Of a stretch of 34,887 nt of DNA, positions 1-23,643 are shown piece after piece (the first letter of the stretch is position 1; each line of letters opens with the position of its first letter). The translations under genes were made by a program, and so were the position numbers. A model generated the notes under the pieces. That model did no database searches, had not been told where the DNA came from, and worked only from the letters and a program-made list of their open reading frames with translations. Source of the DNA: Acrocarpospora corrugata (GTDB taxonomy: Bacteria > Actinomycetota > Actinomycetes > Streptosporangiales > Streptosporangiaceae); the NCBI RefSeq assembly GCF_009687845.1, contig NZ_BLAD01000053.1:1-34887 (forward strand), in the 5' to 3' direction.

Positions 1-405
1 ATTCGAGAAGCCGGGGGTGATCAGCCCGGGGCAGTTCGGGCCGATGATCCGGGTTCGGCCGGAGGCGCGGGCGCGGGCCAGGAACGTCAGGGTGTCGTGC
101 ACGGGCACGCCTTCAGTGATGACCACGCAGAGCCCGATCCCGGCGTCCACCGCCTCGAGAACGGCTCCCTTGGCGAACTTGGGCGGCACGAAGACCACGG
201 AGACGTCCGCGCCGGTCGCCTCCATGGCCTCCGCTACGCCGGAGAAGACCGGAATGCCCTGATGCGTGGACCCGCCCTTGCCCGGAGTCACCCCGGCGAC
301 CACCGTGGTTCCGGCGGCCACCATGCGGGCGGTGTGCCGGCTTCCCTCGGCGCCCGTCATGCCCTGCACGAGCACTCTGCTGTCTTTGGTCAGGAAGATC
401 GCCAT
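1..405 (-). CDS. sucD: Succinyl-CoA synthetase alpha subunit, partial (runs off the left edge)
   Basis: The visible 135 residues are the N-terminal CoA-binding Rossmann domain of the ADP/GDP-forming succinyl-CoA ligase alpha subunit. They begin [18 protein letters not shown] and continue with [18 protein letters not shown] and IIGPNCPG, all typical of SucD. The catalytic phosphohistidine lies beyond the window. The ATG at 405-403 has a GAGGAG ribosome site about 8 nt upstream. The gene starts 13 nt after the sucC stop, so the two form an operon. SucCD normally interconverts succinyl-CoA and succinate with phosphorylation of ADP. This pair shares a control region with an oxalate-type transporter, so it may be a paralogue acting on another dicarboxylate, such as oxalate or malate. 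The family call is secure; the substrate is not. Confidence 0.93.
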
Positions 406-1570: not shown

Positions 1571-1601
1571 CGAGCCCTCCTCAACCGGTTCCTGTAGACG
1601 G

Positions 1602-1612
1602 TATACCGTATG
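1602..1612. promoter_or_regulatory. Predicted GntR operator, sucC side
   Basis: On the minus strand this reads CATACGGTATA, matching CATACNGTATG except at the last base. It overlaps a perfect 12-bp palindrome, ACGGTATACCGT (1598-1609). It lies 32 nt before the sucC start, where a repressor would block transcription. Assignment to the local GntR protein is inferred from recurrence of the motif across the locus. Confidence 0.6.
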
Positions 1613-1661
1613 GCATCTGCGCCGTCCAGCCCTGGACAGTGAACCGGTACCTGGGATATCC

Positions 1662-1672
1662 CATACAGTATG
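1662..1672. promoter_or_regulatory. Predicted GntR operator overlapping the MFS start codon
   Basis: CATACAGTATG is a perfect odd palindrome. Its right half contains the ATG (1670-1672) of the transporter gene. A second perfect palindrome, TGGGATATCCCA (1652-1663), abuts it. No Shine-Dalgarno precedes the ATG, so the transporter mRNA may be leaderless with the operator covering the transcription start. Confidence 0.6.
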
Positions 1673-3079
1673 CACAATGCAATCGAGGTTCGCGACTGGC
1701 GGGGCCGGATCTACCTCGTCGGCCCCTCCGCCACCGAGCTGCTCCGCCGTCCCCCTTCCTGGATGTGGTGGGCGGCCTGGGCGGCCATGGCCGCCATCGC
1801 CCCCATGGAGTACGGCTACGCCGCCCTCTCCCCGCAGCTCGCCGCAGCCCAGGGCCTGTCCCTGGCAGGCTCACTCATCCCGCTCGCCGTCTGGCTGGCC
1901 TGCCAGGCGCTCGCCGCCCTGGCCACGGCGATCCTGCTGTCCCGCGGCCGGCTCCAGGCCCGCACCGCGCTCCGCTTTGGCGCGTTCCTGTCCGGCGCGG
2001 CCCTGCTCACCGTCGCGGCCACCGGCCAATCACCCACCCCGTCCCCCGCCATCTCCGCGCTGACGGCCCTGATCGTCGGGTACGGCCTGCTCGGCGGCAT
2101 CGGCGCCGGCCTGGTGTACGGCGCCTGCACGCAGACCGTCGCCCGGTGGTACCCGGACCGCCCGGCCATCCGGGTCAGCTTCGTGACCGGCGCGTTCGCG
2201 TACGGGACGATTCCCCTCACCGTGGCGGTCGGCCTGGACGACGACCTGCTCGGCCCGGCCTACCTGGTCGCGGCCGTGGTGGCCGTGGGCGTCATCACGG
2301 CGGCGGCGACACTGGTCAGCGCCCCGCCGCCGTTATGGTGGCCGCCGGAAGTCGACCCCCGCGCGTGGGCGCTGGACCGCTCGGTTCTGCACCGCCAGCC
2401 CCGGGCGGTGCGCCAGTTCTCCCTCAGCGAGGCGGCCAGGACCCGATGCCTGGCCGTTCTGGCGTTGATCCTGGTGGTCGCGGGGGCGATCGGGATCTTC
2501 AACGTCATCACCCTGGCGGTCACGCTGGACGCCGCGGGGCCGGTCATCGCCGCCCTCATCGCCTTGATGCTGCTGCTCAACGGCGCGGGAAGGTCCGCCG
2601 CGATCCTGCTCGCCGAGCGGTTCGGCCGGCCCCGGATCCTCTCGCTCGTCCTGCTGTCGCTGGGCGCGGGACAGGCCCTGCTGGCCCTGGCCGGGCTGGC
2701 AGCCCGCGCCGGGGCGGCGGCCTCCCGTGCGGCGGGGGCGGCGGTGTCGATCGGGGCGACGGATGCCGGGATCGGTGTGGGGTTTCTGGCCCTGGCCGGA
2801 GTGGGCCTCGCCGGGATCGGGAGCGGGGCCTGCTACCCGCTGGTCGCGTCGCTGGTTCGTGAATATTTCGGTGATGAGCGCATGTCGGGTATTCACGGTG
2901 TGGTCTACTCCGCCAAGGCCGTCGCGGGGGCCGCCGGGGTGGGTCTGGCGATCTGGGGGGCAGCGGACATCGTGTCGGCCTTCCTGGTCGCGGCCGTACT
3001 GTCGATCGGGGCAGTGGCGCTGTGCGGGCTGTTGCGCAGGCCCGGATTGCCGGTGACGCTCCCGATCAGGGTGCTGTGA
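1670..3079 (+). CDS. OFA-family MFS transporter (probable oxalate/formate antiporter)
   Basis: This 469-residue multi-spanning membrane protein has about 12 hydrophobic helices. After a short cytosolic start containing [12 protein letters not shown] comes the first helix region with [12 protein letters not shown]. Then follow [24 protein letters not shown], characteristic of the oxalate/formate antiporter branch of the MFS, a cytosolic loop with [11 protein letters not shown], and a late [16 protein letters not shown] helix. In the family, OxlT exchanges oxalate for formate. Here the likely job is import of oxalate (or a related small acid) for the CoA-dependent enzymes encoded downstream. 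The ATG at 1670 lacks a ribosome site and sits inside an operator palindrome, suggesting a leaderless transcript. It diverges from sucC. Substrate is inferred from family and neighbours. Confidence 0.82.
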
Positions 3080-3112
3080 TCGATCTCACCTCAGGGCATA
3101 GTGCCAGGAATG

Positions 3113-3123
3113 TATGCTGTAGG
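3113..3123. promoter_or_regulatory. Weak predicted operator upstream of gntR
   Basis: On the minus strand this reads CCTACAGCATA, matching CATACAGTATG at 8 of 11 positions. It is the most degenerate member of the motif set and lies about 70 nt before the regulator's start codon, where autoregulation would be expected. Support is modest. Confidence 0.35.
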
Positions 3124-3191
3124 CAGTCGACGACAAACAGTTAGGCGTCAGACTTTCGGCGAACAAGCCGCCCATTCTGGAGTTGAGAACG

Positions 3192-3923
3192 ATGCTCGCG
3201 AACCAGGGAGCCACTGCGAAGATCGCCCGGCCCACGACGCTCAGGGAAAGTGTGTTCGAAGCGATTCTCGAGCTCATAATCGTCGGGAATCTGGAGCCCG
3301 GCCAGCATCTGGTCGAGAACGAGCTGGCCGACATCCTCGGGGTTTCCCGTCAGCCCGTCCGGGAGGCGCTTCAGCTGCTCAGCGGTGAGGGGTGGGTGGA
3401 TCTGCGGCCGGGTCACGGCGCGTTCGTGCACGCCCCGACCGTGGCCGAGGCCGACCAGCTGCTGGCCGTGCGCACGCTGCTGGAGACCGAGTCCGCGCGC
3501 CTGGCCGCGCGCAACTCGGACGAACCGGGCGTGGCGCAGCTGCGGATGTTGTGCGCCCGCGGGCTGGCCGCGTTCGAGTCCGACGACGTGGACGGCTCGG
3601 TGGCCGCCAACTCGGAACTGCACGCCGCGGTGACCGCGCTGTCCGGCAACCAGGTCCTGGCCGAGCTGACCTCGCAGGTCGCCCGGCGGGTCCGCTGGTA
3701 TCACACGCCGGTCGCCCGGCAGCGTGGGCGGGCGTCCTGGGACGAGCACACGGCGCTGATCGACGCCATCGCGGACGGCGACGAGGAGCTGGCCGCCGAG
3801 GTCATGCGCCGGCACACCGAGCACACCCGGCATTCCTACCTGGAGCAGCGCGCCGGCCATGGCGAGGAGAGCGTGTCCGCACCCGCCCGGCGGCGCCGTC
3901 CGCGCGCCGCCGCCACGAGTTGA
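3192..3923 (+). CDS. GntR-family transcriptional regulator, FadR/FCD subfamily
   Basis: This 243-residue DNA-binding regulator has a winged helix-turn-helix at about residues 15-80, including LADILGVSRQPVREALQLLSGEGWV, and then an all-helical FCD ligand domain. The second domain shows the family's acid and histidine pattern in ANSELHAAV, WDEHTALIDAIADGD and HTEHTRHSYLE, expected to hold a metal and a carboxylate or acyl-CoA ligand. The ATG at 3192 has GGAG nine bases upstream; the TTG at 3183 abuts that site and is rejected. It is the only DNA-binding regulator in the catabolic locus. FadR-type proteins recognise short TATAC-centred palindromes like those before the neighbouring genes, so it is the best candidate for their repressor. 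The ligand is unknown; oxalate, oxalyl-CoA or glyoxylate are possibilities. Confidence 0.92.
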   Translation: MLANQGATAKIARPTTLRESVFEAILELIIVGNLEPGQHLVENELADILGVSRQPVREALQLLSGEGWVDLRPGHGAFVHAPTVAEADQLLAVRTLLETESARLAARNSDEPGVAQLRMLCARGLAAFESDDVDGSVAANSELHAAVTALSGNQVLAELTSQVARRVRWYHTPVARQRGRASWDEHTALIDAIADGDEELAAEVMRRHTEHTRHSYLEQRAGHGEESVSAPARRRRPRAAATS

Positions 3924-3983
3924 CACGCCTTTCATCGGCCGCCTGTTTCCTTGAAACACGACGGGTAGAGAATGGAACGGAAA

Positions 3984-3996
3984 GGAGGTGACCTCC
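3984..3996 (+). promoter_or_regulatory. Near-perfect Shine-Dalgarno embedded in a palindrome
   Basis: AAAGGAGGTGA at 3981-3991 is close to an ideal complement of the 16S rRNA 3' end, and the ATG follows at 3997. GGAGGTGACCTCC (3984-3996) is self-complementary around one central base, so the ribosome site could pair with the bases next to the start codon. Confidence 0.6.
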
Positions 3997-4206
3997 ATGA
4001 AGGCGTTTCTGAACCGGCTCCGCGGCCTCCGCGACAGACCCCGCACCGGCACGGCCGACGGCCGTCCGATGGGCCTCGGCCTGGCGACCGCGATGCGGAA
4101 CTACTCCTCCGCCCGCGACGCCGACCGCCACCTGCGCCGCTGGGCCGCTGAGCAGCAGCCCACCACCACTCCCGCCGACCACTCCGGCGACCCGCACTCG
4201 CGCTGA
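3997..4206 (+). CDS. Small hypothetical protein (69 aa)
   Basis: An ATG preceded by an exceptionally strong ribosome site opens a 69-codon frame ending in TGA. Nearly every third codon position is G or C, as in true genes of this window, so it is very likely translated. The protein begins MKAFLNRLRGLRDRP, is basic and arginine-rich in its first 50 residues, and ends in a proline/threonine-rich tail. No signal peptide, membrane segment or known domain is visible. It lies 73 nt after gntR in the same direction and faces the end of the terC operon. I do not recognise the family. It could be a small regulator or protein-interaction partner, but nothing in the sequence shows this. Confidence 0.6.
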   Translation: MKAFLNRLRGLRDRPRTGTADGRPMGLGLATAMRNYSSARDADRHLRRWAAEQQPTTTPADHSGDPHSR

Positions 4207-4492
4207 GCCACCCGCACACCCAGCCGAGCCGCCGCCACCCGATCACCAGCGATCCGCTGAGCACCCAGGGTCGACCAGGCACCCGACACCAACAGCAGGG
4301 GCAGAGCCGGACCAATGCCCGCCGCGGCCTTCGCGAGCGTCCCCCACCGGCTCCCCCGAAGCGAATCCCTCCCTCCAGCGAATCCTCCGACGATCCGGAT
4401 CCGTCGGCAGGCCGACCAAGAGCACCCGGCCAGCGGATTTCGCCTCCGCGAGCATCGCCTTTCAGCCACTTCGCCGTACCGGCGCAAGAGGG
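4207..4492. other. Intergenic region without a convincing gene
   Basis: Between the small gene and the hairpin before terC, the frames are short and lack ribosome sites. I see no RNA gene or repeat here. Confidence 0.5.
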
Positions 4493-4524
4493 CTGGCGGA
4501 CGGCCCGGAAGGGCCGCCCGCCAG
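4493..4524. terminator. GC-rich hairpin ending the terC operon
   Basis: A 14-bp stem with one A.C mismatch (4493-4506 with 4511-4524) closes a GGAA tetraloop. It lies 26 bp beyond the terC stop and also faces transcription from the small gene at 3997. No U-tract follows on either strand, common for actinobacterial terminators. Confidence 0.6.
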
Positions 4525-4550
4525 GGTGGTCGGAAGGTTCCAGAAAGGGG

Positions 4551-5540
4551 TTAGTTGTCGACTCCCGCGGGTTCGCGCTGGGTTTGGACGGCCGCGCGAC
4601 GGGTGTCGGAGCGGGACTTGATGAGGCTGGCGACCGTGGTCAGCGCCAGGGTGCCGATGATGACGCCCAGGGAGACCAGGATCGGCACCTCGGGGGCCCA
4701 GGAGACGCCGTCGTGGTGCAGTGCTTCCATGATGAGCTTGACGCCGATGAAGGCGAGCACGATCGACAGGCCCTTGCTGAGGTAGACCAGCCGGTCGAGC
4801 AGGCCCCCGATCAGGAAGAACAGCTGGCGCAGCCCCATCAGCGCGAACACGTTGGCCGTGAACACCAGGTACGGCTCCCTGGTCAATCCGAAGATCGCCG
4901 GAATCGAGTCCAGCGCGAACAGCAGGTCGGTCGTCCCGATGGCCACCATGACGATGAGCATCGGGGTGACCATCCGCCGCCCGGCGACCTGAATGGTGAG
5001 TTTCGCGCCGTGGTAGACGTCGGTGGCGGGCAGCACCCGCCGGACCGCACGGATCGCGATGTTCTCCGAGAACTCGGCTTCCTCCTCCTCATGGCCGATG
5101 AGCTTCCACGCCGTATAGACCAGGAACGCGCCGAACAGATAGAAGAGCCAGTCGAATCTGGCCACGGCCTCGGCGCCGGCCGCGATGAACAGGCCGCGCA
5201 TCAGCAGCGCGATCACGATGCCGACCAGCAGCACCTTCTGCCGGTACTCCCGCGGCACCGAGAACCGGCTCATGATCAGTAGGAAGACGAACAGGTTGTC
5301 CATGCTGAGCGAGTACTCGGTGATCCATCCGGCGAAGAACTCGCCGCCTCGGGCCGGCCCGGCCACGAGCAGCAACCCGCCGCCGAACAGTCCCGCGAGC
5401 GCCACGTAGAAGAGCACCCACCACGTGCATTCGCGAAAGGACGGTTCGCGCGGATTGCGGGCGACCAGGTAGAAGTCGAGGGCCAGCACGAGGGCGAAGC
5501 CGCCGATCGTGACGAGCCACACCCAGGTGGGCAGGTTCAT
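4551..5540 (-). CDS. TerC-family integral membrane protein (probable metal exporter)
   Basis: This 329-residue protein has about nine hydrophobic helices and the two TerC signature segments: EYSLSMDNLFVFLLI in an early helix and DLLFALDSIPAIFGL in a later one. Their aspartates are thought to bind metal. An acidic HEEEEAEF loop separates the halves. Characterised relatives (Alx, MeeF) export manganese, and others are linked to tellurium resistance. Its ATG overlaps the stop of the preceding small membrane protein by four bases (ATGA), so the two are translationally coupled. It is the last gene of the operon that begins with the Oxc-like enzyme. Why a TerC protein belongs in an acid-catabolic operon is unclear; metal handling for Mn- or Mg-dependent enzymes is one idea. 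Confidence 0.88.
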   Translation of the reverse strand: MNLPTWVWLVTIGGFALVLALDFYLVARNPREPSFRECTWWVLFYVALAGLFGGGLLLVAGPARGGEFFAGWITEYSLSMDNLFVFLLIMSRFSVPREYRQKVLLVGIVIALLMRGLFIAAGAEAVARFDWLFYLFGAFLVYTAWKLIGHEEEEAEFSENIAIRAVRRVLPATDVYHGAKLTIQVAGRRMVTPMLIVMVAIGTTDLLFALDSIPAIFGLTREPYLVFTANVFALMGLRQLFFLIGGLLDRLVYLSKGLSIVLAFIGVKLIMEALHHDGVSWAPEVPILVSLGVIIGTLALTTVASLIKSRSDTRRAAVQTQREPAGVDN

Positions 5541-6106
5541 CGAACCCCTTTCTTCGGCTTGGCCCGCCGCCGGTCACGGGCGCGCGACAGTGTCTCGGCG
5601 TGTTCCACATACCGCCGGAGCAGTAGCGCGGCTTCGGGGTTGTGGCCGGCCACCCGCATCAGCCACGGCGGCATGAAGCGCTCGTGCAGCCACAGGAAGC
5701 CGATCGCGAAGCCGAGGCTGACCATGGCCTGGTAGGCGAGGAAGCCGCCCAGGCCGCCGGACAGGTAGACCTGCCCGTGCAGGACGAGACCGGCGGCCGT
5801 CTCCTGGACCAGCCGGGCCAGTGGGAAGCCGATGAGCCAGTAGACCCCGGCCGGGGCGAAGACGCCGGGCCGGAACAGGCCGCTGAACCTGCCGCCGAAG
5901 GAGCGGGGGCCGAGCAGCATGCCGTACCCGGCGCCGAGGAGGCCGAGCGGGACGGCTAGGGCGAGCGCCGAGACGGCGGCCCAACCGGTGGACTGCCCCG
6001 CGAGGAGGGTCAGCCCACCGGCCATGGCGCCGGCGACGACTCCGATCGACAGCCCCGGGACAGCGAGCTCCGCGTAGTGTCGTCCGAATGATCGTCTTGG
6101 CGCCAT
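5537..6106 (-). CDS. Small integral membrane protein of unknown function
   Basis: This 189-residue protein has about four hydrophobic helices: near 17-36, 41-66, 88-108 and 118-143. It contains glycine-rich stretches such as GGLGGFLAYQAM and ends in a basic tail, RARDRRRAKPKKGVR. I do not recognise a family. Its ATG follows the stop of the NRAMP-like gene after a single base, and its own stop overlaps the terC start. The three membrane proteins are therefore made as a unit and may act together, for instance as an accessory subunit to one of the transporters. That functional link is inference from gene coupling only. Confidence 0.75.
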   Translation of the reverse strand: MAPRRSFGRHYAELAVPGLSIGVVAGAMAGGLTLLAGQSTGWAAVSALALAVPLGLLGAGYGMLLGPRSFGGRFSGLFRPGVFAPAGVYWLIGFPLARLVQETAAGLVLHGQVYLSGGLGGFLAYQAMVSLGFAIGFLWLHERFMPPWLMRVAGHNPEAALLLRRYVEHAETLSRARDRRRAKPKKGVR

Positions 6107-6107
6107 G

Positions 6108-7604
6108 TCAGCCCACTACCACGCCGAACGCGAACAGGCTGTAGAGCAGCATGCCGAGATAGAACACCGCGCCGAAGCCGATGATCACGTTCGTAAGGAG
6201 CTTGGGCCGGATGGGTTTGGGCAGCATCCGGTTGTTCACCAGCAGCAGTGTGACGCAGTACGCGCCCATCGCGAACGTTGACAGGAACGCCAGCGTGTCG
6301 AGAATGCCGCTGGGCCCGTCGGCCGGGCCGAACAGCAGGATGAGGATGCCGAAGGCGATGACGCCCCACAGGAAGATGGCGTAGAGGTGCGACATGCGCA
6401 GCCGCTTGGCGCCGCGGACGAAGTGATAGGTCATGTCGGCCTGGCCCCGGGAGAACGAGTCGAACAGCCCGAGGGTGGCGTTCATGCCGATCAGCGCGAT
6501 GAAGCCGAGGAAGACCACGCCCAGGACGGAGCTGCCCGCCGAGGCGAAGGAGTCGGCCATCGCGTTGAGCGCCGCTTCCCGCTCACCGTTCTCGATCACG
6601 TCCTTGACCCCGGGGGTGTTCCTGGCCGCGGCCTGGGCGATCACGGTGAACGAGATCGTGACGAGCATCGTGATACCCCAGAAGAGCAGCAGCGCGTCGA
6701 AGGTGACCCAGCGCCGCCAGCCCTTCCACTTGCGCATCTCCTCCGGGTTCTCGGTGTCGAACATGAAGCCGCGCGACGGCATGGCCTCCTCTTCGCCGGC
6801 GTGCCGGAGACCGCGGATCTGCGGGATGTGCGCGCCCATGCCTGCGCCGGAGTCGCGCAGATGCAGCGTGTACCACATCTGCTGCATACCGGACGGGCCG
6901 GCGAAGGCGATGGAGCCCACGATGACGGGGAACCAGGCCGCAGACAGCGCCTCCGACGGCAGGTAGCCGAAGGAGAACATGCCGGTGATGGTGTTCACCA
7001 CGTCGCCCCAGGTGCCGACCATGGCGGCGACGACGGCGGTGCTCACCACGAGCACGCCGATCAGGACCGAGAGCACGCTCTCCAGGAAGCTGTAGATCAC
7101 TTTGGCCAGGCTGAAGACAGTCCCGACCAGGAGTAATCCGACCACCGCCGTGATCATCCAGGGGATCCCGGTTATCTGTTCGAACGCCGCCGCGCCCGCC
7201 GACAGATGGCCGGGCCAGATGTAGACGAGGATGGCGACGATGAAGAAGAACCACATCAGCGGCTTGAAGACCCGGGCCGCGCCGAAGAAGATGCTCTCCC
7301 CCGTGGCCATCGCGTAACGCGCCATCTCCAGCATGACGACGGCCTGGAGGGTGACGCCGATCAGGAACAGCCATCTGATCTCCGGCCCGAACAGCAGGAC
7401 CAGCCGGGGCCACATGTAGGACTCGCCCATGCCCACGCCGAGCGCGACGAGGAACACGGTGGGCCCGAGGATGTGCACCGACGGGGGCGCGTCGGGCAGC
7501 GTGCGGATGGGCATCGGCTCCAGCTTGCCCGCCCGCCATACTCGTTCATCTTGATCCGCTGGGGCAGCCGTGTGCTCGGTCGCCGGTGTTCTTGACGTGT
7601 CCAC
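6108..7604 (-). CDS. NRAMP-related transporter lacking the canonical metal-binding motifs
   Basis: The 498-residue polytopic protein has about 11 helices and the overall look of the NRAMP (SLC11) branch of the LeuT-fold superfamily. The first helix reads VALGVGMGESYMWPRLV in place of the DPGN motif of true metal carriers. The sixth-helix region reads AFAGPSGMQQMWY in place of the methionine-histidine motif. These two unwound segments form the metal site in known NRAMPs, so the substrate may not be a divalent metal. The GTG start at 7604 has GAGGAGG seven bases upstream. The gene follows the acyl-CoA ligase by 78 bp and precedes two coupled membrane-protein genes. A carboxylate or atypical metal substrate is possible. 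Confidence 0.78.
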   Translation of the reverse strand: MDTSRTPATEHTAAPADQDERVWRAGKLEPMPIRTLPDAPPSVHILGPTVFLVALGVGMGESYMWPRLVLLFGPEIRWLFLIGVTLQAVVMLEMARYAMATGESIFFGAARVFKPLMWFFFIVAILVYIWPGHLSAGAAAFEQITGIPWMITAVVGLLLVGTVFSLAKVIYSFLESVLSVLIGVLVVSTAVVAAMVGTWGDVVNTITGMFSFGYLPSEALSAAWFPVIVGSIAFAGPSGMQQMWYTLHLRDSGAGMGAHIPQIRGLRHAGEEEAMPSRGFMFDTENPEEMRKWKGWRRWVTFDALLLFWGITMLVTISFTVIAQAAARNTPGVKDVIENGEREAALNAMADSFASAGSSVLGVVFLGFIALIGMNATLGLFDSFSRGQADMTYHFVRGAKRLRMSHLYAIFLWGVIAFGILILLFGPADGPSGILDTLAFLSTFAMGAYCVTLLLVNNRMLPKPIRPKLLTNVIIGFGAVFYLGMLLYSLFAFGVVVG

Positions 7605-7682
7605 GTATGGACCTCCTCGGGAGTTTGGTTGGTCCCGCCTGTCCCCGATTCGCCCCCTCGTTCTGTGCGGCCCTCCGCCCGC

Positions 7683-9809
7683 TCAGCCGCGCAGCAGTCC
7701 GGCCGCGCGGGCCCAGCGATACTTCGCGCCGAGCACCGCCACCGGTTGCTCCGTGGTGTACGGATAGGCGATGACACCGTGGTCGAAGAGGTATTCGCAC
7801 GCCTCCTCGACCTCGACGTCACCGGCCAGCGACGCCACTACCGGCTTGACGTTGCCGTTGGCCCGTTCCTCGGCCACGACCCGGGAGACGAGCTCGGCGA
7901 AGACCATCGGCGGGGTGACGATGGTGTGCCAGTAGCCGAGCACCAGGGCGTGGATCCGCGGATCGGTCAAGCCGAGCCTGAGGGTGTTCTCGTACGTGCT
8001 GGGTGGCTCGCCGCCCGTGATGTCGATCGGGTTGCCCGCCGCCCCGAACGGCGGAATGTACGCCTTGAACGCCTCGTCCAGATCCGGCGGGATCTCCATC
8101 AGGGTGAGCCCGTTGTCGACGCACGCGTCGGAGAGCAGCACCCCGGATCCGCCTGCGCCGGTGATGATGACGACGTTCTCGCCCTGGGGCGTGGGCATGA
8201 TCGGCAGCGACCGGGCGTATTCCAGCATGTCGTTCAGTCCGGGAGCGCGGACCACGCCGGCCTGCCGCAGGATGTCGTCGTAGACCTTGTCGTCGCCGGC
8301 CAGCGCGCCGGTGTGGGATCCGGCGGCGCGGGCGCCCATGGCGGTCCGCCCCGCCTTCAGCACGATCACCGGTTTGGTCTTCACGACCCGGCGCACGGCG
8401 TCGACGAAGCCGCGGCCGTCCTTGAGGTCCTCCAGGTGCATGGCCACGCAGTGGGTGTTGTCGTCCTGCTCGAAGAAGGTGAGCAGATCGTCCTCGTCCA
8501 CGTCGGCCTTGTTGCCGACGCCGACGATCGCCGAGACGCCCATCCGGGTGGTCCGGCTGAAGCCGAGGATGGCCATCCCGATGCCGCCGCTCTGCGAGGT
8601 CAGCGCCACACCGCCACGCACGTCATACGGCGTGCAGAAGGTCGCGCACAGGTTTTCCGGCGTGTAGTAGTAGCCGTAGATGTTGGGCCCCAGCATGCGG
8701 ACCCCGTGCCGCCGGGCGATCTCGACGATCTCCCGCTGGCCTTCGACGTTGCCGGTCTCGGCGAAGCCGGACGGGATCATGATCGCCCCGGCCACGCCCT
8801 TCACGCCCGCGTCCTCCAGCGCCCCGGCGACGAACTGCGCGGGGATGGCGAACACGGCCACGTCGACCTCGCCGGGCACGGCGGCCATGTTCGGATAGGC
8901 GGGTAACCCGAGGATCTCGGTGGCCTTCGGGTTGATCGGGTAGATCCGCCCCTGGTAGCCGCCGTTGATGAGGTTCCGCATCACCGAGTTGCCGATCTTC
9001 CCGTTCTCCGCGGAGGCGCCGATGACGGCCACCGCGCGGGGCTTGAAGATGCGGTTCATCGAGGCGAGGATCTCGTCCCGGGACAGCCTGGCCGGCGGCT
9101 CGGCCGGTTCGGGGTCGAGCAGGATGCGGACGTCGGCGGCGACCGCGCCGGTCGCGCTCGCGAAGACGGGGTTGAGGTCCACCTCGGCGATCTCGGGGTG
9201 GTCGGAGATGAGGGCGCCGACGCGCTCGATCATGCCCGCGAGCGCCTCGCGGTCAGCCGGCGCGGCCCCCCGCACACCTCGCAGCACTTCGGCCGCTCTG
9301 ATGTCATCGAGCATCCCGAGTGCATCATCACCTGAAAGTGGGGCAAGCCGGAAGGTCACATCTTTCAGCACCTCGACCAGGACCCCACCCAGGCCGAAGG
9401 CCACCACTTTGCCGAACGTGGGGTCGGTGACCGCGCCGATGATCACTTCGTGGCCGGCGCCCACCATCTGCTGCACCTGGACGCCGTCGATGGCCGCGTT
9501 CGGGTCGTAGGCGTGCGCCGCGGCCAGGATCCGGTCGTAGCCGGACCGCACCGCCGCGGGATCGGCCAGGCCGACGAGCACGCCGCCCGCCTCGGTCTTG
9601 TGCAGGATGTCCGGCGAGACGATCTTCAACACGACCGGGAAACCCATCCCGGCGGCCAGCGCGACGGCGTCCTCGGCCGAGGTCGCCACGCCCTCGCCGG
9701 GGGTGGCGATCCCGTACACGTCGCAGATCCGCTTGCCCTCCGGGGCGGTCAGCGCGAGCCGGCCCTCCGCTCGGGCCTTCTCCAGGATCTCTCCGACCTC
9801 GTTCGACAT
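7683..9809 (-). CDS. NDP-forming acyl-CoA ligase (acetate--CoA ligase family), fused beta-alpha
   Basis: This 708-residue single-chain enzyme joins both subunits of the ADP-forming acyl-CoA synthetases. An N-terminal ATP-grasp domain covers about residues 1-225 (VVLKIVSPDILHKTEAGGV, FGLGGVLVEVLKD, EVDLNPVF). The CoA-binding and ligase domains follow (PRAVAVIGASA, LTSQSGGIG, ASHTGALAG-like GSHTGALAG), where the histidine is the expected phosphorylated residue. It converts acid, ATP and CoA to acyl-CoA, ADP and phosphate. The ATG at 9809 begins one base after the frc stop, and GGAG lies nine bases upstream; a TTG at 9818 is less likely. In this operon the logical role is to make the first oxalyl-CoA or formyl-CoA that primes the CoA-transferase cycle. 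The substrate is not visible from sequence. Confidence 0.87.
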   Translation of the reverse strand: MSNEVGEILEKARAEGRLALTAPEGKRICDVYGIATPGEGVATSAEDAVALAAGMGFPVVLKIVSPDILHKTEAGGVLVGLADPAAVRSGYDRILAAAHAYDPNAAIDGVQVQQMVGAGHEVIIGAVTDPTFGKVVAFGLGGVLVEVLKDVTFRLAPLSGDDALGMLDDIRAAEVLRGVRGAAPADREALAGMIERVGALISDHPEIAEVDLNPVFASATGAVAADVRILLDPEPAEPPARLSRDEILASMNRIFKPRAVAVIGASAENGKIGNSVMRNLINGGYQGRIYPINPKATEILGLPAYPNMAAVPGEVDVAVFAIPAQFVAGALEDAGVKGVAGAIMIPSGFAETGNVEGQREIVEIARRHGVRMLGPNIYGYYYTPENLCATFCTPYDVRGGVALTSQSGGIGMAILGFSRTTRMGVSAIVGVGNKADVDEDDLLTFFEQDDNTHCVAMHLEDLKDGRGFVDAVRRVVKTKPVIVLKAGRTAMGARAAGSHTGALAGDDKVYDDILRQAGVVRAPGLNDMLEYARSLPIMPTPQGENVVIITGAGGSGVLLSDACVDNGLTLMEIPPDLDEAFKAYIPPFGAAGNPIDITGGEPPSTYENTLRLGLTDPRIHALVLGYWHTIVTPPMVFAELVSRVVAEERANGNVKPVVASLAGDVEVEEACEYLFDHGVIAYPYTTEQPVAVLGAKYRWARAAGLLRG

Positions 9810-9810
9810 C

Positions 9811-11037
9811 TCAGACAACTCCGTCTCTCTTCAGCTGGGCCAGTTCGTCGGCGGTGACGCCGAGCCCGGCGTAGATCTCCTGGTTGTGCTCGCCGAGCAG
9901 AGGCGGCGTGGTCACCTCGACCGGGGAGTCGGAGAGGTGGAGCGGGCTGCCGACGGTGACGAACGAGCCGCGCTCGGGGTGCTCGACGGTGATCACCGCG
10001 CCCTCGGCCCGCAGCGACTCGTCCTCGACGAGCTCGCGGGTGGACAGGATCGGCCCGCACGGGATGTTCTCCGCGTTCAGCCGGTCCAGCACGGTCCACT
10101 TGTCGTGCTGGACGGTCCACTCCTCGATGAGCTGGAACAGCTTGTCGAGTTTGGGCAGCCGCGCCTCCGGCGTGGCCCATTCCGGGTCCTCGGCCAGTTC
10201 GGGGCGGCCGATGATCGCGGACAGCGGCCGCCAGCCGACCGGCTGGACGATCACGTAGATGTAGTCGTTCGGGCCGCCGGGGGCGCAGCGCACCGCCCAG
10301 CCGGGCTGGCCGCCGCCGGACGCGTTGCCCGAGCGCGGCACCTCGTCGCCGAACAGCTCGTTCGGATACTCCCGGAGCGGACCGTGCGCCAGCCGCTGCT
10401 GGTCGCGCAGCTTGACCCGGCACAGGTTGAGCACGGCGTGCTGCATGGCGACCTGGACCCGCTGGCCCTTGCCGGTCTGGCCGCGCTGGTAGAGGGCGGC
10501 CAGGATGCCGGCCACGGCGTGCACGCCGGTGCCGGAGTCGCCGATCTGGGCGCCGGTGGCCAGCGGCGGGCCGTCGTCGAAGCCGGTGGTCGACATCGAG
10601 CCGCCCATGGCCTGGGCGATCACCTCGTACGCCTTGAAGTCCGCGTATCGCCCGGGGCCGAAGCCCTTGATCGACGCGTACACCAGGCGCGGGTTGAGCT
10701 CCTGCAGCCGCTCCCAGGTGAAGCCCATCCGGTCGACGGCGCCGGGGCCGAAGTTCTCGACCAGGATGTCGGCCTCCCGCACCAGGCCGGTGAACAGCTC
10801 CTTGCCGCGGGCGCTCTTCATGTTGAGCGTGATGCTGCGCTTGTTGCAGTTGAGCATCGTGAAGTAGAGGCTGTCCACGCCGGGCAGGTCACGCAGCTGC
10901 GACCGGGTGATGTCGCCGGAGGGGGCTTCCAGTTTGACGACGTCGGCGCCGAGCCAGCCGAGCAGCTGGGTGCACGACGGGCCGGACTGCACGTGGGTCA
11001 TGTCGAGGACGCGGACGCCCTCCAATGCCTTTCCCAT
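9811..11037 (-). CDS. frc: Formyl-CoA:oxalate CoA-transferase (class III CoA-transferase)
   Basis: This 408-residue enzyme moves CoA from formyl-CoA to oxalate, giving oxalyl-CoA and formate. The N-terminus carries [21 protein letters not shown] and [17 protein letters not shown], nearly identical to the corresponding stretches of E. coli YfdW/Frc as I recall it. The predicted catalytic aspartate is Asp167 in QIGDSGTG, and the glycine loop that gates the active site is GGGQPGW (241-247). [12 protein letters not shown] is also retained. These subclass-specific motifs separate it from carnitine or racemase-type relatives. The ATG at 11037 has GAGGGGA upstream and lies 11 bp after the Oxc-like gene. 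It is the strongest marker that the locus handles oxalate. Confidence 0.94.
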
Positions 11038-11048
11038 CGCCGTCCCCT

Positions 11049-12749
11049 CTACTTGTACATCGTCTGGTTCATGGTTCCGGGGGCGTAGACCTCCGGATCG
11101 ACCCATACGTTGATCAGCGCGGGCTTGCCCGACTCGCGGGCACGCTCCAGGGCGGGCCGGATGTCGGCCGGATCCCTGACCTCCTCGCCGTGGCCGCCCA
11201 GCATCCGGGCGAACTCGTCGTAGCGCACGTCGCCGAGGGTGTTGCCGACCCGGCCGCGGGCGTCGCCATACTTGGCGGCCTGCCCGTAGCGGATCTGGTT
11301 CATCGAGGAGTTGTTGCCGATGACGCCGATGAACGGCAGGTCGAAGCGGACCATCGTCTCGAAGTCCCACCCGGTGAGGCTGAAGGCGCCGTCGCCGAAC
11401 AGGCAGAGCACCTCCTTGTCGGGGCGCGCGTATTTGGCCGCCATGGCGAAGGCGACGCCGACGCCGAGGGTGCCCAGCGGGCCCGGGTCCATCCAGTGGC
11501 CGGGTGACTTGGGCTGCACGACCTGGCCGGAGAAGGTGACGATGTCGCCGCCGTCGCCGATGTAGATGGTGTCCTCGGTGAGGAACTCGTTGATCTCGTG
11601 GACCAGCCGGTAGGGGTCGATCGGCTGGGCGTCGGAGAGCTGGCGGGGCAGGCGGTTCTGGTAGGCCTTGGTCTCGACCGCGCGCAGCTCCTCCAGCCAC
11701 TCCTTACGCCGGGCCGCGCCGCTGTCCACCCGCCCCGAGGCGGCCTGCGCGGCGGCGGACAGGATCAGGCCGGCGTCGCCGACGATGCCCAGGTCGATGT
11801 CGCGGTTCTTGCCGACGGTGCGGTAGTCGAGGTCGATCTGCACCACGGTGGCCGACTTGGACAGGCGCTTGCCGTAGCCCATCCGGAAGTCGAACGGCGT
11901 GCCGACGATGATGATCAGGTCGGCCTCGGTGAACGCGTAGCGCCTGGACAGCTGGAAGTGGTGCGGGTCGCCGGGCGGGAGCGTGCCACGGCCGGAGCCG
12001 TTCATGTAGGACGGGACGTTGAGCGCGCGGACGAAGTCGATCGCGTCGTCGGTGGCGCGGCAGGTCCACACCTGGCTGCCGAGCAGCACGCACGGCTTCT
12101 CCGAGTTCACCAGCAGGTCGGCCAGGCGCTCGATGGCCTCCGGGTCGCCCGCCTGCCGGGTGGAGGCGCGATACCGCCCGGCCGCCGGAATCCGGGCCTT
12201 GGCCAGGGGCACGCGCGCGTCCAGCACGTCCCGCGGGATCTCCAGGAAGGCCGGGCCCGGCGCGCCGTGGTAGCACTCGCGGAAGGCCATCGACACGATG
12301 TCGGCCACCCGTTCCGTGCTCGGGACCGTGGCCGCGAACTTGGTGATCGGGGTCATCATGTCCACATGCGGCAGGTCCTGCAGCGAGCCCATCTTGTGCT
12401 GGCTGAGGGCGCCCTGACCACCGATGAGCAACATCGGGCTCTCCGCGCGAAAGGCGTTGGCCACACCGGTCACCGCGTCGGTCGTGCCCGGCCCCGCCGT
12501 GACCACCGCGCAGCCCGGCTTGCCGGTGATCCGCGCGTAGCCGTCGGCGGCATGCGCGGCCACCTGCTCGTGCCGGACGTCGATCACCTCGATGCCCTCG
12601 TCCACGCAGCCGTCGTAGATGTCGATGATGTGGCCGCCGCAGAGCGTGAAGATCACGTCGATCCCCTCCGCCTTTAGGGCCTTCGCCACCAGGTGGCCGC
12701 CGGAGATCGTTTCCGGCGCGTCCGCTGCCTGCGGCACTGGCTCCGTCAT
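11049..12749 (-). CDS. TPP-dependent oxalyl-CoA decarboxylase / 2-hydroxyacyl-CoA lyase-like enzyme
   Basis: The 566-residue protein has the three-domain fold of TPP enzymes. The catalytic glutamate is Glu61 in [15 protein letters not shown]. The TPP/Mg motif runs from GDG at 452-454 to NN at 479-480. Position just before frc argues for oxalyl-CoA decarboxylase (oxalyl-CoA to formyl-CoA plus CO2). The sequence, however, follows the HACL/IlvG-like branch ([39 protein letters not shown]). It lacks stretches typical of Oxalobacter and E. coli Oxc, such as GVVGIP, SAPGF and NEGANALD. Actinobacterial 2-hydroxyisobutyryl-CoA lyase, which also yields formyl-CoA, is a serious alternative. A gene-specific operator lies 50 nt upstream. 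Confidence 0.85.
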
Positions 12750-12798
12750 CTGTGTCGTCCTTCCGGGAGACGTTCTGCTTCATGTCTACGCCATACTG

Positions 12799-12809
12799 CA
12801 TACCGTATG
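12799..12809. promoter_or_regulatory. Predicted GntR operator before the Oxc-like gene
   Basis: CATACCGTATG is a perfect odd palindrome. A second related copy, CATACTGCATA, overlaps it at 12792-12802. Together they sit about 43-60 nt before the Oxc-like start codon, in the 106-bp gap after moeA. The six-gene minus-strand operon therefore probably has its own regulated promoter. Confidence 0.6.
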
Positions 12810-12855
12810 AGGAACATGGTTACTCTCCTGTCCCTGGGATGTCCAGAGGTTTCGG

Positions 12856-14052
12856 CTACTCGCTCAGACCCGGCTCGACCGGCAGGGCGAGCAGCTCCAC
12901 CGGGCCGCCGGCCCACCCGGGCGGGAGCACGGCCAGCGCGTCGGCCAGCGCCGGTCCGCGCAGCGAACCGGGCCGGTCATGCCCGGTCGGTACGGCGCCG
13001 CGCCCCGACCGCCGCACCGCCACCAGCCGGGTGTCGGCCGGATGAGCCATGACCGGCACGGCCAGCGCGGAGCGCTCCCCCACCGTCTCGGCCCGCCCCG
13101 CCAGCGCGCGCAGCATCGGAACCAGCAGCGTCAGCGCCGCCGCCAGCGCGGCGAAGGGATTGCCCGGCAGGCCGATCAGTGACCGCCCGCCGGGGAGCCT
13201 GGCCAGCAGCTGCGGATGGCCGGGCCGGACGGCCACGCCGTCGATCAGGATCGTCGCGCCGACGGCCGCCAGCACGGCCCGCAGATGATCGGCGGGGCCG
13301 CGGGAGGACGCTCCGCACACGACGACCACATCACCGGTCCCGTCGGCGAGCACGCCGGTGAGCACGGCCTCCTGGTCAGGCAGGTAGAGGGGCGGCAAGG
13401 ACTCCCCGCCCGCCCAGGCGATCAGCCCCGGCAGCATCGGGCCGACCGCGTCCCTGACCCGGCCGGGGCCCGGAACTCCGGTGGGCACCACCTCGTCCCC
13501 GGTGACCAGGACCTCCACGATCGGGCGGGGCCGGACGCGCAGGAGATCGTGGCCGAGCGCGGCGGCGAGGCCGAGCACCACCGGCGTGACGAGGGTTCCG
13601 GCCGCCAGGACCGGTTCGCCCCAGGCGCAGTCCTCGCCGCGCCGCCGGATGTGCCGCCCCGGCTCGGCCTCCCCGATGACGACGCCGTCGACGCCGCCGG
13701 CCGCCTCATAGGGCAGGACGGCCTCCGCTCCGATCGGAACCGGGGCGCCGGTGCCGATCTCGACGGCGGTGCCGGAGCGCAGGGTGCCGCCGTGGGCCGG
13801 GCCGCCGGCCAGCACCTGCCCGACCACCCGCCAGGGCGGCCGACCGGCCACGGCGTAGCCGTCCATGGCGGCCACGGCGTCCCGCGGCAGCGGGATCAGG
13901 GCGCGCAGCGGCTCGGCCAGCCGGCAGCCATACGCACCGGAAAAGGGCAGGTCGGCGATGGGGAGCGGGGCGGCGGCGCGGTAGGCGATCCGCCGCGCCT
14001 GGTCCCAGGGCACGTCCGTGCGGATGGAACGGACGCCGGAAGCGACAGTCAT
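12856..14052 (-). CDS. moeA: Molybdopterin molybdenumtransferase
   Basis: This 398-residue MoeA-type protein inserts molybdate into adenylylated molybdopterin to make active molybdenum cofactor. Motifs in order are RDAVAAMDGYAV, GTGAPVPIGAEAVLPYE, the VLVTGDEVVPTG turn, VCGASSRGPADHL and GLPGNPFAAL near the end of the central domain. A C-terminal beta domain follows. The ATG at 14052 has AAGGAGT upstream; the open frame extends over the operator and is not used. The gene diverges from the panE-like gene, with one operator between them. A MoeA dedicated to this locus fits the need of the adjacent formate dehydrogenase for a bis-MGD cofactor. Housekeeping MoeA copies usually sit elsewhere. Confidence 0.9.
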   Translation of the reverse strand: MTVASGVRSIRTDVPWDQARRIAYRAAAPLPIADLPFSGAYGCRLAEPLRALIPLPRDAVAAMDGYAVAGRPPWRVVGQVLAGGPAHGGTLRSGTAVEIGTGAPVPIGAEAVLPYEAAGGVDGVVIGEAEPGRHIRRRGEDCAWGEPVLAAGTLVTPVVLGLAAALGHDLLRVRPRPIVEVLVTGDEVVPTGVPGPGRVRDAVGPMLPGLIAWAGGESLPPLYLPDQEAVLTGVLADGTGDVVVVCGASSRGPADHLRAVLAAVGATILIDGVAVRPGHPQLLARLPGGRSLIGLPGNPFAALAAALTLLVPMLRALAGRAETVGERSALAVPVMAHPADTRLVAVRRSGRGAVPTGHDRPGSLRGPALADALAVLPPGWAGGPVELLALPVEPGLSE

Positions 14053-14079
14053 GGGCGACTCCTTGACCTTCAAACTTTC

Positions 14080-14090
14080 CATACTGTATA
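14080..14090. promoter_or_regulatory. Predicted GntR operator between moeA and the panE-like gene
   Basis: CATACTGTATA matches CATACNGTATG except at the last base and is followed by CC, extending a TGTATACC core. It lies 28 nt before moeA and 37 nt before the divergent panE-like start, where one site could govern both. Confidence 0.58.
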
Positions 14091-14126
14091 CCGAATGCAC
14101 GGTCGACGCGAGAACGGAGCTTGCTT

Positions 14127-15110
14127 GTGAAGGTCGCTGTTCTTGGCGCCGGCGCCATCGGTGCGTATGTGGGGGCCGCCCTGCACCGCGCCGGCGTCGA
14201 GGTGCATCTCATCGCCCGCGGGGAGCACCTCGCGGTCATGCGGAAGTCCGGCGTACGGGTGCTCAGCCCGCGTGGGGACTTCACCGCCCATCCGAACACC
14301 ACCGACGATCCCCGCGAGGTAGGACCGGTCGACCATGTCTTCCTGGGCCTGAAGGCCAACTCCTACGCCGCGGCCGGAGAAATGATCAAGCCGATGCTGC
14401 ACGAGACGACTTCGATCGTCGCCGCCCAGAACGGCATCCCGTGGTGGTATTTCCACCGGCTGGCGGGGCCGTACGAGGGATATCGCATTGAAAGTGTGGA
14501 CCCGGGGGGCGCGGTCACGGCCGCGCTGCCGCTGGAGCGGGCCATCGGGTGCGTGGTCTACGCGGCGACCGAGATCGAGGCGCCGGGCGTGATCCGCCAT
14601 CTGGAGGGGACCCGGTTCTCGATCGGGGAACCCAGCGGCGAGCTCTCGCCGCGCTGTGCCGAGCTCAGTGAAGCCATGATCGCGGGCGATCTCAAATGCC
14701 CGGTCGAGGCGGATCTGCGGCACGACATCTGGGTGAAGCTGATGGGCAACGTCGCCTTCAACCCGATCAGCGCGCTGACCCGGGCCACCATGGCCGGCAT
14801 CTGCCGGCACCGGAGCACCCGCGAGGTGGTGGTGACGATGATGCGCGAGACGGTCGAGGTGGCCCGGCGGGTCGGCTGCGATCCGCAGATCTCCATCGAG
14901 CGCCGGATGGCCGGGGCGGAGCGGGCCGGCGAGCACAAAACCTCCACACTGCAGGACCTGGAGAAGGGCAAACCGCTGGAGCTCGACGTGCTGCTCGCCG
15001 CCGTGGTGGAGCTGGCCGACCTGACCGGCGCCTCGGTGCCGACCCTGCGGGCGGTGCACGCGGTCACCGATCTGCTCGACGAGCAGGTCAGGCTTGTGGC
15101 ATCGGCGTGA
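14127..15110 (+). CDS. Ketopantoate reductase-family protein, probable oxalyl-CoA reductase (PanE2-like)
   Basis: This 327-residue NADPH-dependent reductase opens with the Rossmann motif VAVLGAGAIGAYVGAAL and carries LGLKANSY and QNGIPWW. Its C-terminal helical domain includes LMGNVAFNPISALT, with the family's lysine in DIWVKLMGN, and ends near KTSTLQDLEKGKPLELD. The GTG at 14127 has GGAG seven bases upstream. The family normally reduces 2-dehydropantoate for CoA synthesis. In Methylorubrum extorquens, however, panE2, located with oxalate genes, was linked to oxalyl-CoA reduction to glyoxylate. The same neighbourhood here makes oxalyl-CoA reductase the better hypothesis. It precedes the formate dehydrogenase operon, which has its own operator. 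Confidence 0.85.
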   Translation: MKVAVLGAGAIGAYVGAALHRAGVEVHLIARGEHLAVMRKSGVRVLSPRGDFTAHPNTTDDPREVGPVDHVFLGLKANSYAAAGEMIKPMLHETTSIVAAQNGIPWWYFHRLAGPYEGYRIESVDPGGAVTAALPLERAIGCVVYAATEIEAPGVIRHLEGTRFSIGEPSGELSPRCAELSEAMIAGDLKCPVEADLRHDIWVKLMGNVAFNPISALTRATMAGICRHRSTREVVVTMMRETVEVARRVGCDPQISIERRMAGAERAGEHKTSTLQDLEKGKPLELDVLLAAVVELADLTGASVPTLRAVHAVTDLLDEQVRLVASA

Positions 15111-15115
15111 ACGCG

Positions 15116-15126
15116 CATACCGTAGG
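15116..15126. promoter_or_regulatory. Predicted GntR operator before the formate dehydrogenase operon
   Basis: CATACCGTAGG differs from the consensus palindrome at one base. A perfect TGTATACA palindrome follows at 15128-15135. Both lie between the panE-like stop and the fdhA ribosome site, about 20-40 nt before the start codon. Confidence 0.55.
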
Positions 15127-15156
15127 CTGTATACAATGCTTGGAGGGATTGGGCCC

Positions 15157-17092: not shown

Positions 17093-19158
<2,066 letters not shown>

Positions 19159-19162
<4 letters not shown>

Positions 19163-22348: not shown

Positions 22349-22476
22349 CGCCGGCGCGTGCCCTGGTGCGATTCGACGGCGTCGAGCGCTGACCCTTTCC
22401 CGTGCGTCCTGGTGACCCGGCGGGGAGGGGTCGAAGCCACGCGGGTCACACGGAATCTGCACCAAAGGAAAGGGAC

Positions 22477-23643
<1,167 letters not shown>

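Follow-up and report, generated by a model that had tools for sequence, protein, structure and literature searches.

A predicted oxalate/formate regulon of an FCD-domain GntR regulator in Acrocarpospora corrugata

Genes and putative operators of the locus

The window analysed here, 34,887 nucleotides of Acrocarpospora corrugata (contig NZ_BLAD01000053.1, positions 1 to 34,887; hereafter C53), is the start of one of the 170 contigs of a 9.27-Mb genome. From left to right it carries sucD (cut) and sucC, a transporter gene, gntR, a leftward series terC-orf189-nramp-acd-frc ending with a thiamine pyrophosphate (TPP) enzyme gene, then moeA, and finally panE and formate dehydrogenase genes to fdhD, read rightward. 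A previous interpretation made from the letters of the window, called here the sequence-only reading, had described one operator motif, CATACNGTATG, before every transcription unit of this locus and had assigned all copies to the GntR protein encoded at 3192-3923. We hold it likely, with good though not full confidence, that the sites are operators of this FCD-type GntR protein and that their six promoters form one oxalate/formate regulon, whose repressor would be released by a metabolite of the pathway. The six putative operators, S1 to S6, have no strand assigned and are as follows.

1589..1618, core 1596-1611 AGACGGTATACCGTAT: S1, before sucC; own motif copy and profile match, kept in relatives
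1656..1678, with ATACAGTAT at 1663-1671: S2, before the MFS transporter gene and overlapping its start codon; copy and profile match
12786..12808, core 12793-12808, minus strand reading ATACGGTATGCAGTAT: S3, before the TPP-enzyme/frc/acd operon; copy and profile match, conserved
14081..14096, ATACTGTATACCGAAT: S4, between the divergent moeA and panE; copy and profile match
15117..15137, ATACCGTAGGCTGTATACAAT, containing the palindrome TGTATACA: S5, before fdhA; copy and profile match
3112..3132, GTATGCTGTAGGCAGTCGACG: S6, putative site of autoregulation upstream of gntR; poor consensus match, kept in orthologues

The genes and one further element are listed below.

1..405, minus strand: sucD, truncated by the contig start; 97% identity over 135 amino acids with sucD of the related locus L041
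419..1570, minus strand: sucC, succinate-CoA ligase beta; NF001913, 485.9 bits (cut-off 370)
1670..3079, plus strand: MFS transporter with a weak oxalate/formate antiporter family match, below the OxlT antiporter cut-offs (TIGR00890, 70.6 bits against 374.85; TIGR04259, 39.4 against 335)
3075..3090, plus strand: Crp-type palindrome TGTGATCGATCTCACC (TGTGA-N6-TCACC), upstream of the gntR operator
3192..3923, plus strand: gntR, FCD-domain GntR regulator and proposed repressor; Pfam GntR and FCD, AlphaFold model, fold matches
4551..7604, minus strand: terC, orf189 and nramp; no operator of their own
7683..9818, minus strand: ADP-forming acyl-CoA ligase (acd-like); under the cut-offs of the named ligase models
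9811..11037, minus strand: frc, formyl-CoA transferase; passes TIGR03253 with 660.3 bits (cut-off 504.2)
11049..12749, minus strand: TPP enzyme, oxalyl-CoA decarboxylase-like; under the family cut-offs (25 models listed of 51)
12856..14052, minus strand: moeA, molybdopterin biosynthesis; family models
14121..15110, plus strand: panE-like reductase, candidate oxalyl-CoA reductase; NF005089, 448.4 bits (cut-off 223), with PanE2/apbA2 as parallel (PMC8411744, PMC7486775)
15157..17085, plus strand: formate dehydrogenase catalytic subunit (fdhA); TIGR01591, 639.4 bits, slightly under the cut-off of 666.25
17093..20848, plus strand: formate dehydrogenase NADH-type subunits and fdhD (open reading frames, ORFs, 17093-19162, 19159-20028 and 20021-20848); by eye from the ORF list, order kept in relatives

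All genes 3' of fdhA were named by eye. Judging by gene order and strand, terC, orf189 and nramp are probably the distal part of the TPP-enzyme operon. In the relative L041, hyi, glxR and gcl come after sucCD, and in the host genome the end of contig C75 carries gcl, glxR, hyi and the tail of sucD, the head of which stands at the start of C53. These two contigs most likely join within sucD, which would place the glycerate pathway genes in the operon controlled from S1; the sucC operon, and hence the regulon, probably extends to hyi-glxR-gcl, farther than the sequence-only reading had drawn it. Contigs of the genomes G003, G031 and G047 likewise start at or near sucC.

Distribution of the sites in the host genome and in relatives

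The copies of CATACNGTATG reported earlier stand where they were said to be, at 1602 (one mismatch), 1662 and 12799 (no mismatch), 14080 and 15116 (one mismatch each) and, for the partner, 12792 (two mismatches); four of the ten matches with up to two mismatches (6885, 8624, 14087 and 22286) are absent from the earlier list. Ten such matches compare with 4.1 expected, a number reached by one of 100 shuffles. The 9-letter core ATACNGTAT with at most one mismatch occurs eight times in the window against 1.3 expected and a maximum of four in 100 shuffles. When scored by a 16-letter consensus, ATACKGTATRCMGTAT, S3 matches in full, S1 and S4 in 15 letters, S2 and S5 in 13 and S6 in 12. The claim that no copy lies inside a gene was marginally wrong, as the copy at 1662-1672 overlaps the transporter ATG at 1670.

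Across the host genome the motif is rare and concentrated in the window. The exact 9-mer occurs nine times in 9.27 Mb, four of them within the window, for which the chance by length alone (at least four of nine) is 2.5e-8; a reversed control pattern occurs five times. The five copies outside the window set against these five control matches place the motif at background beyond the window. One of the five lies inside an ORF (L007), two by eye inside genes (L006, L009) and two directly before ATGs (L001, L008), a partner core being found only at L001 (4/6), and none was added to the regulon. A genome scan with a site-based profile gave the same picture: a profile of 71 sites of relatives (80 distinct sites less nine Acrocarpospora rows, so that the genus was excluded) returned eight matches at E<=10 in the host genome, seven of which lie in the window and jointly cover S1 to S5, and the eighth, C67:55481, lies inside an ORF. 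The E-values are modest (best 0.06), and the strength of this result is the location of the matches rather than their individual E-values. By 9-mer counts and by profile alike, a motif equally common at unrelated promoters, which would have refuted the sequence-only reading, was not observed.

The same counts bear on the idea that the copies are simply conserved promoter -10 sequences (TATACT-like) instead of operators. The motif does include a -10-like hexamer at several promoters, but outside the window its frequency does not exceed that of the control (5 and 5), it extends at 7-bp steps and, at the TPP operon, it lies downstream of the likely promoter, and we consider this idea very improbable indeed.

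The placement of the sites before particular genes is conserved in relatives. For loci retrieved through gntR, cores upstream of each gene were counted, one mismatch being allowed; one assembly is counted twice for sucC and the TPP gene (tpp), and genes whose match starts more than 25 residues from the query start (more than 30 in the enlarged set described below) were left out. A core precedes sucC in 15/15, tpp in 19/19 (16 exact), panE in 13/14 and fdhA in 12/12 cases. Before operon-internal genes of the same loci it was found in 0/19 for acd, 0/18 each for nramp, orf189 and terC, 0/10 for the Fe-S subunit gene, 0/11 for fdhD and 1/20 for frc. The earlier wording that every transcription unit has a site is correct only on the condition that terC, orf189, nramp, acd and frc are cotranscribed with the TPP gene, none of the five having a site of its own in the window. 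moeA is preceded by a core in three of ten relatives and in the window shares a site with the divergent panE.

A second set, 25 genomes retrieved by the TPP protein, was chosen neither by motif nor by gntR, and here a core stands before the TPP gene in all 25 (19 and 5 from locus surveys, and G007 by match C430:1054-1065, 45 bp upstream). In G046, G048, G049 and G051 the TPP gene with its site and gntR are on separate contigs, and in G027 tpp-frc-acd, mfs and sucC, all with sites, lie about 105 kb from a site-flanked gntR copy. Twenty extra loci, a selection from the pattern matches, were taken because they hold the pattern CATACNGTATRC or adjoin one, and they were excluded from the main counts as evidence of site presence; 11 have pathway genes by the site (though L091 and L083 do not have it immediately upstream of the gene), and L092 has a weak fdh-like gene away from its site. 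Counts that include them are 19/19 for sucC, 23/23 for mfs, 23/23 for tpp, 15/16 for panE and 12/13 listed for fdhA, the sucC-mfs region being counted from both sides. L042, a duplicate of L079, and L071 were dropped from the site sets; both were kept in the upstream counts of the gntR-fetched loci, and L071 in the 7-bp spacing count given below. Two Pseudonocardia loci (L045:8493 and L046:4310) have a site flanked by hyi-glxR-gcl on one side and, on the other, by a divergent gene for an IclR-type regulator akin to BhcR.

The presence of the sites also follows that of gntR. In a panel of 100 genomes, 41 of which have a GntR homologue at E<=1e-40, CATACNGTATRC occurs in 29/41 genomes with the gene and 4/59 without it (Fisher p 1.3e-11, an optimistic value and to that extent a weakness of the result, as the pattern was chosen with sites from part of this panel already in view and its members share ancestry). 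The pattern has 87 matches in the former group (reversed control 29) and four in the latter (control 22), and within the family only it is found in 27/36 genomes with gntR and 3/25 without. Profile matches at E<=0.5 occur in 27/41 and 0/59 genomes, respectively, a partly circular comparison in that the profile was built from sites of genomes with gntR. Overall, the proposal of one regulon under the GntR protein at 3192-3923 gains comparative support, since the same genes are preceded by sites in several genera, TPP genes off the gntR contig among them, and site presence tracks gntR over the 100 genomes, G005 excepted.

Several results pull the other way. The main exception is G005, which alone among the 25 genomes with the TPP gene has no GntR match at E<=1e-40, its best GntR being 36% identical; its assembly is in 610 contigs, but it counts against the link. 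Moreover, 12 of the 41 genomes with gntR lack CATACNGTATRC. Eight of the 20 pattern-picked loci (L082, L084-L087 and L097-L099) hold no pathway gene, L098 and L099 coming from genomes without gntR; L142-L144, L146, L149 and L150 have no pathway gene beside the site either. The gene for the NADH subunit within the fdh operon is preceded by a core in three of six relatives, perhaps an internal promoter in some of them. S6 is a weak site: its 12/16 score is equalled by five other rows of the window (block shuffles average 2.1, maximum 5), the profile did not recover it in its own genome at E<=10, and only 6/42 gntR homologues are preceded by a core with at most one mismatch. A weak S6-type site is nonetheless conserved upstream of gntR in relatives, so that the weak copy noted earlier at 3113 stands by conservation while its letter match (12/16) remains poor. 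Finally, because gntR and the pathway genes mostly co-occur, the genome association cannot separate sites bound by GntR from sites that belong to the pathway.

A rival reading takes the motif as the operator of another regulator, one inherited with the pathway, while the linked GntR controls something else. In its favour, G005 combines the TPP gene and a variant site with the lack of a close GntR homologue, and in Pseudonocardia an IclR-type gene stands beside hyi and one site. The variant, CATACAGTATCCGTCGACTGTATGC, precedes the TPP gene in G005, G051 and G053 (L137:508, L138:2181, L065:113), with cores 14 bp apart and not 7. However, no second regulator appeared among the locus proteins run against family libraries, a conserved site precedes gntR too, the GTATAC core with K/M flanks agrees with the FadR/VanR consensus, and the sites track gntR across genomes, with the qualification on the profile count made above. 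Control by another regulator is accordingly regarded as quite unlikely, and GntR as the probable binding protein.

Architecture of the putative operator and of the regulator

The motif as first written is real but probably out of phase with the working dyad. A second core lies exactly 7 bp off the first, with at least 4/6 letters in 76/97 sites against 0-8/97 at offsets 8 to 13; with the shared letter removed, at least 3/5 free letters at +/-7 bp are present in 78/96 sites, whereas 1000 shuffles of the flanks gave 17.6 on average and never more than 31. In the window this partner core reaches 5/6 at S1, S3 and S4 and 4/6 at S5. Once the sites are oriented to the second core, the centre letters are K (G/T) in 55/67 and M (A/C) in 57/67 rows (67 after removal of orientation ties and duplicates), a bias that is present in mfs, tpp and panE and lower in fdhA (7 and 6 of 10). 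It is because of the cores 7 bp apart and the biased centre letters that the KGTATACM dyad is favoured over CATACNGTATG, which as a dimer site ranks behind it, a matter of preference only. On a GTATAC-centred dyad, CATACNGTATG would be one outer half-site plus half of the central palindrome. The operator is thus probably ATAC-K-GTATRC-M-GTAT, in which a GTATAC palindrome of the FadR/VanR type is accompanied by half-sites at a distance of 7 bp, and KGTATRCM with its outer half-sites would agree with the FadR-subfamily consensus GT-N2/3-AC and its extra boxes 7-12 nt from the centre (Suvorova et al., PMC4494728).

The dyad has its own counter-evidence. S2 has no clear partner core (3/6 on either side), and the K/M bias does not hold at sucC (5 and 6 of 10) and holds for one of the two letters at gntR (0 and 3 of 3). 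Near the centre, plain symmetry is higher for the dyad of the sequence-only reading (0.99, 0.99, 1.00, 0.70) than for the one proposed here (0.87, 0.60, 0.98, 0.31). This is to be expected, since every site was selected by its ATACNGTAT core and such a selection by itself makes the surroundings of the core centre symmetrical; plain symmetry does not decide between the two dyads.

The GntR protein combines an N-terminal winged helix (PF00392, 70.4 bits) and a C-terminal FCD domain (PF07729, 92.8 bits), both above cut-off. Its AlphaFold model (pLDDT 85.6) has the first helix from residue 17, about 16 residues preceding it, and the best fold matches by query TM are 7u5q (Brucella GntR, 0.76-0.78), PmiR (0.68-0.70) and, at rank 3, Atu1419 (0.59-0.64). 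The nearest named relatives are from Acrocarpospora (95-96% identity), Nonomuraea (76-78%) and Pseudonocardia (66-67%). Residues H144, H186, H208 and N140 are invariant in seven sequences, the HypR counterparts of the histidines being His142, His186 and His208 (PMC6608401); a metal-held carboxylate is a plausible ligand, the identity of which we infer. The recognition helix is nearly invariant across the 40 homologues compared. A paralogous GntR clade lies mostly beside moeA (L057, L058, L059, L066, L070, L071, L075 and L078; L069 without a moeA match) and has the same recognition helix, with isolated one-mismatch cores or none nearby and no exact core. Given the near-identical helix, these moeA-side paralogues might also bind the operators.

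Several known systems come close to this arrangement. The VanR-type FCD repressor Atu1419 of Agrobacterium fabrum shares the fold, probably the GTATAC-centred palindrome (ATGTATACAT) and a site in its own promoter region, and has zinc with bound citrate in its FCD domain, but its palindromes are 190 bp apart and can be looped by a tetramer, and its pathway is that of hydroxycinnamic acids (PMC7797058), whereas the half-sites here are set at 7-bp steps. Escherichia coli NanR is an FCD-type GntR repressor with a close-set repeat operator to which several dimers bind cooperatively, an arrangement that the present sites may share; unlike the alternating half-sites around GTATAC, NanR has direct GGTATA repeats and a 32-residue N-terminal extension (PMC8012715), and neither tandem GGTATA (the cores are TACNGTA at a 7-bp step) nor a long N-terminal extension is found here. 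FadR-subfamily sites have, as is favoured for the present ones, a GT-N2/3-AC palindrome and, 7-12 nt off its centre, additional boxes that are weaker; here, by difference, a motif search first finds the flanking box and half of the palindrome, and no oxalate regulon appears in the available parts of PMC4494728. HypR of Streptomyces coelicolor, likewise from an actinomycete, is an FCD protein with a three-histidine metal site that represses a catabolic operon as well as itself, differing in its motif, CTNTGC(A/C)ATGTCAC, and in its hydroxyproline pathway (PMC6608401).

A close-set half-site array of this kind is a strong form of a feature already reported for the family. A more far-reaching version is conceivable and, in our estimate, rather doubtful: an array of variable length with interlocking 7-bp steps, in which at least two dimers on different helix faces would share GTATAC, bound by an oxalate-sensing FCD repressor in which oxalate would chelate the metal of the FCD pocket, so that one ligand event would free the whole multi-operon pathway.

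Promoter overlap, pathway and proposed mode of control

Promoter-like elements, judged by eye, stand at a constant spacing from the operator. At panE, the distance from TTGACC to a TATACC that forms part of the operator is 17-18 bp (window, L079, L049 and L052), S4 overlapping the TTGACC-N18-TATACC element at 14063-14092; several more distant panE promoters have no clear TTGAC. At sucC, CTGGAC or CTAGAC is found about 18 bp from TATACC or TATACA inside the operator in 12/19 cases. Most tpp promoters listed have CTGGACA or CTAGACA, then a TAACCAT-like element about 17 bp on, with the operator directly downstream. The transporter operator overlaps the ATG (1670), and at gntR the operator lies over a conserved TATGCT, which suggests autorepression. 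Such positions over the -10 or start region point to a repressor that blocks polymerase, and GntR is probably a repressor by this overlap with predicted promoters.

Activation by GntR, or activation and repression depending on the site, would be the alternative. A protein bound over the -10 or start region usually blocks initiation, and this is where the operators of sucC, panE, gntR and the transporter gene are placed by the promoter predictions. On the other side, the position of the site varies, S3 being downstream of a putative promoter and others over the -10, and FadR-family proteins can activate, GlcC being named as an activator in PMC11323563. An activating role is on balance improbable, and repression is preferred.

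Upstream of gntR, a second input may act. The Crp-type palindrome is found together with the operator in 13 of 40 gntR upstream regions, with centres 33-35 bp apart in 12 of them; in L041 the distance is 45 bp, longer by roughly one turn of the helix. The host genome has 17 matches to the pattern and three to its reversed control. This suggests control of gntR by carbon status.

With regard to the substrate, the simplest reading of the gene set is oxalate use along two branches, one to formate and carbon dioxide and the other to glyoxylate and glycerate, given that gcl, glxR and hyi are probably in the regulon. PanE2 of Methylobacterium has been characterised as an oxalyl-CoA reductase (PMC8411744), and Cupriavidus has a homologue close to its frc-oxc genes (PMC7486775). 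The panE-like gene and the glycerate pathway (gcl-hyi-tsr) are common to these PanE2/apbA2 systems and the present one, whereas GntR is mentioned 0 times in PMC7486775. The regulon would probably span oxalate uptake, oxalyl-CoA decarboxylation and reduction, glyoxylate assimilation, formate oxidation and molybdenum-cofactor supply, and moeA and fdhD would fit a molybdenum formate dehydrogenase.

The weak point of the oxalate reading is the TPP enzyme, which by family models is only Oxc-like. It falls below the cut-off of all NCBIfam models listed (25 of 51), oxalyl-CoA decarboxylase included, with 245.1 bits for that model (TIGR03254, cut-off 739.4) and 363.6 bits, likewise under cut-off, for an actinobacterial lyase model; its closest solved relatives are 2-hydroxyacyl-CoA lyases. 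The substrate might thus be another acid that yields formyl-CoA, such as a 2-hydroxy acid on whose CoA ester a 2-hydroxyacyl-CoA lyase acts, formyl-CoA being an intermediate of such a pathway (PMC7176365), and the transporter's scores, far under the antiporter cut-offs, would suit this as well. However, Frc passes the oxalate formyl-CoA transferase model, panE has a site, and the position of hyi, glxR and gcl after sucCD in relatives fits oxalyl-CoA reduction and glyoxylate assimilation. We therefore give another substrate a low probability and retain oxalate.

On this basis, a dimer of the FCD-type GntR most likely binds the KGTATACM palindrome (GT-N2-AC), and half-sites 7 bp to one or both sides would admit further subunits side by side. 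The operator would cover the predicted -10 at sucC, panE and gntR and the predicted start region at the transporter gene, and would stand directly downstream of the conserved promoter-like pair at the TPP operon, and GntR probably represses by blocking RNA polymerase, its own gene included. A metabolite of oxalate breakdown (oxalate, oxalyl-CoA or glyoxylate) may release it at the three-histidine FCD site. Release would then bring joint expression of uptake, CoA transfer, decarboxylation, reduction to glyoxylate, entry into the glycerate pathway, formate oxidation and molybdenum cofactor supply.

A single-repressor oxalate/formate switch of this type is an ordinary kind of gene control and, as a prediction from genome comparison, well supported. 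The regulon would be new, while its kind (GntR/FCD) is already known: among the literature matches listed, by titles and the starts of abstracts and with subscription journals mostly uncovered, there is no GntR regulator of oxalate breakdown in actinomycetes, and searches by motif strings gave nothing describing this regulon among the titles and abstract starts of the matches listed. Oxalate is produced abundantly by plants and fungi, and its bacterial consumers in soil include actinomycetes. A regulator, operator and gene set spanning several genera would offer a direct handle on how oxalate use is switched on. In addition, the regulon would link the panE-like gene to oxalate assimilation, would point to the TPP enzyme of the pathway and might be turned into an oxalate biosensor.

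Elsewhere in the window, the ORF at 30051-31211 resembles by eye the oxygenase domain of a bacterial nitric oxide synthase, and the ORF at 22402-23643 a divergent second elongation factor Tu.

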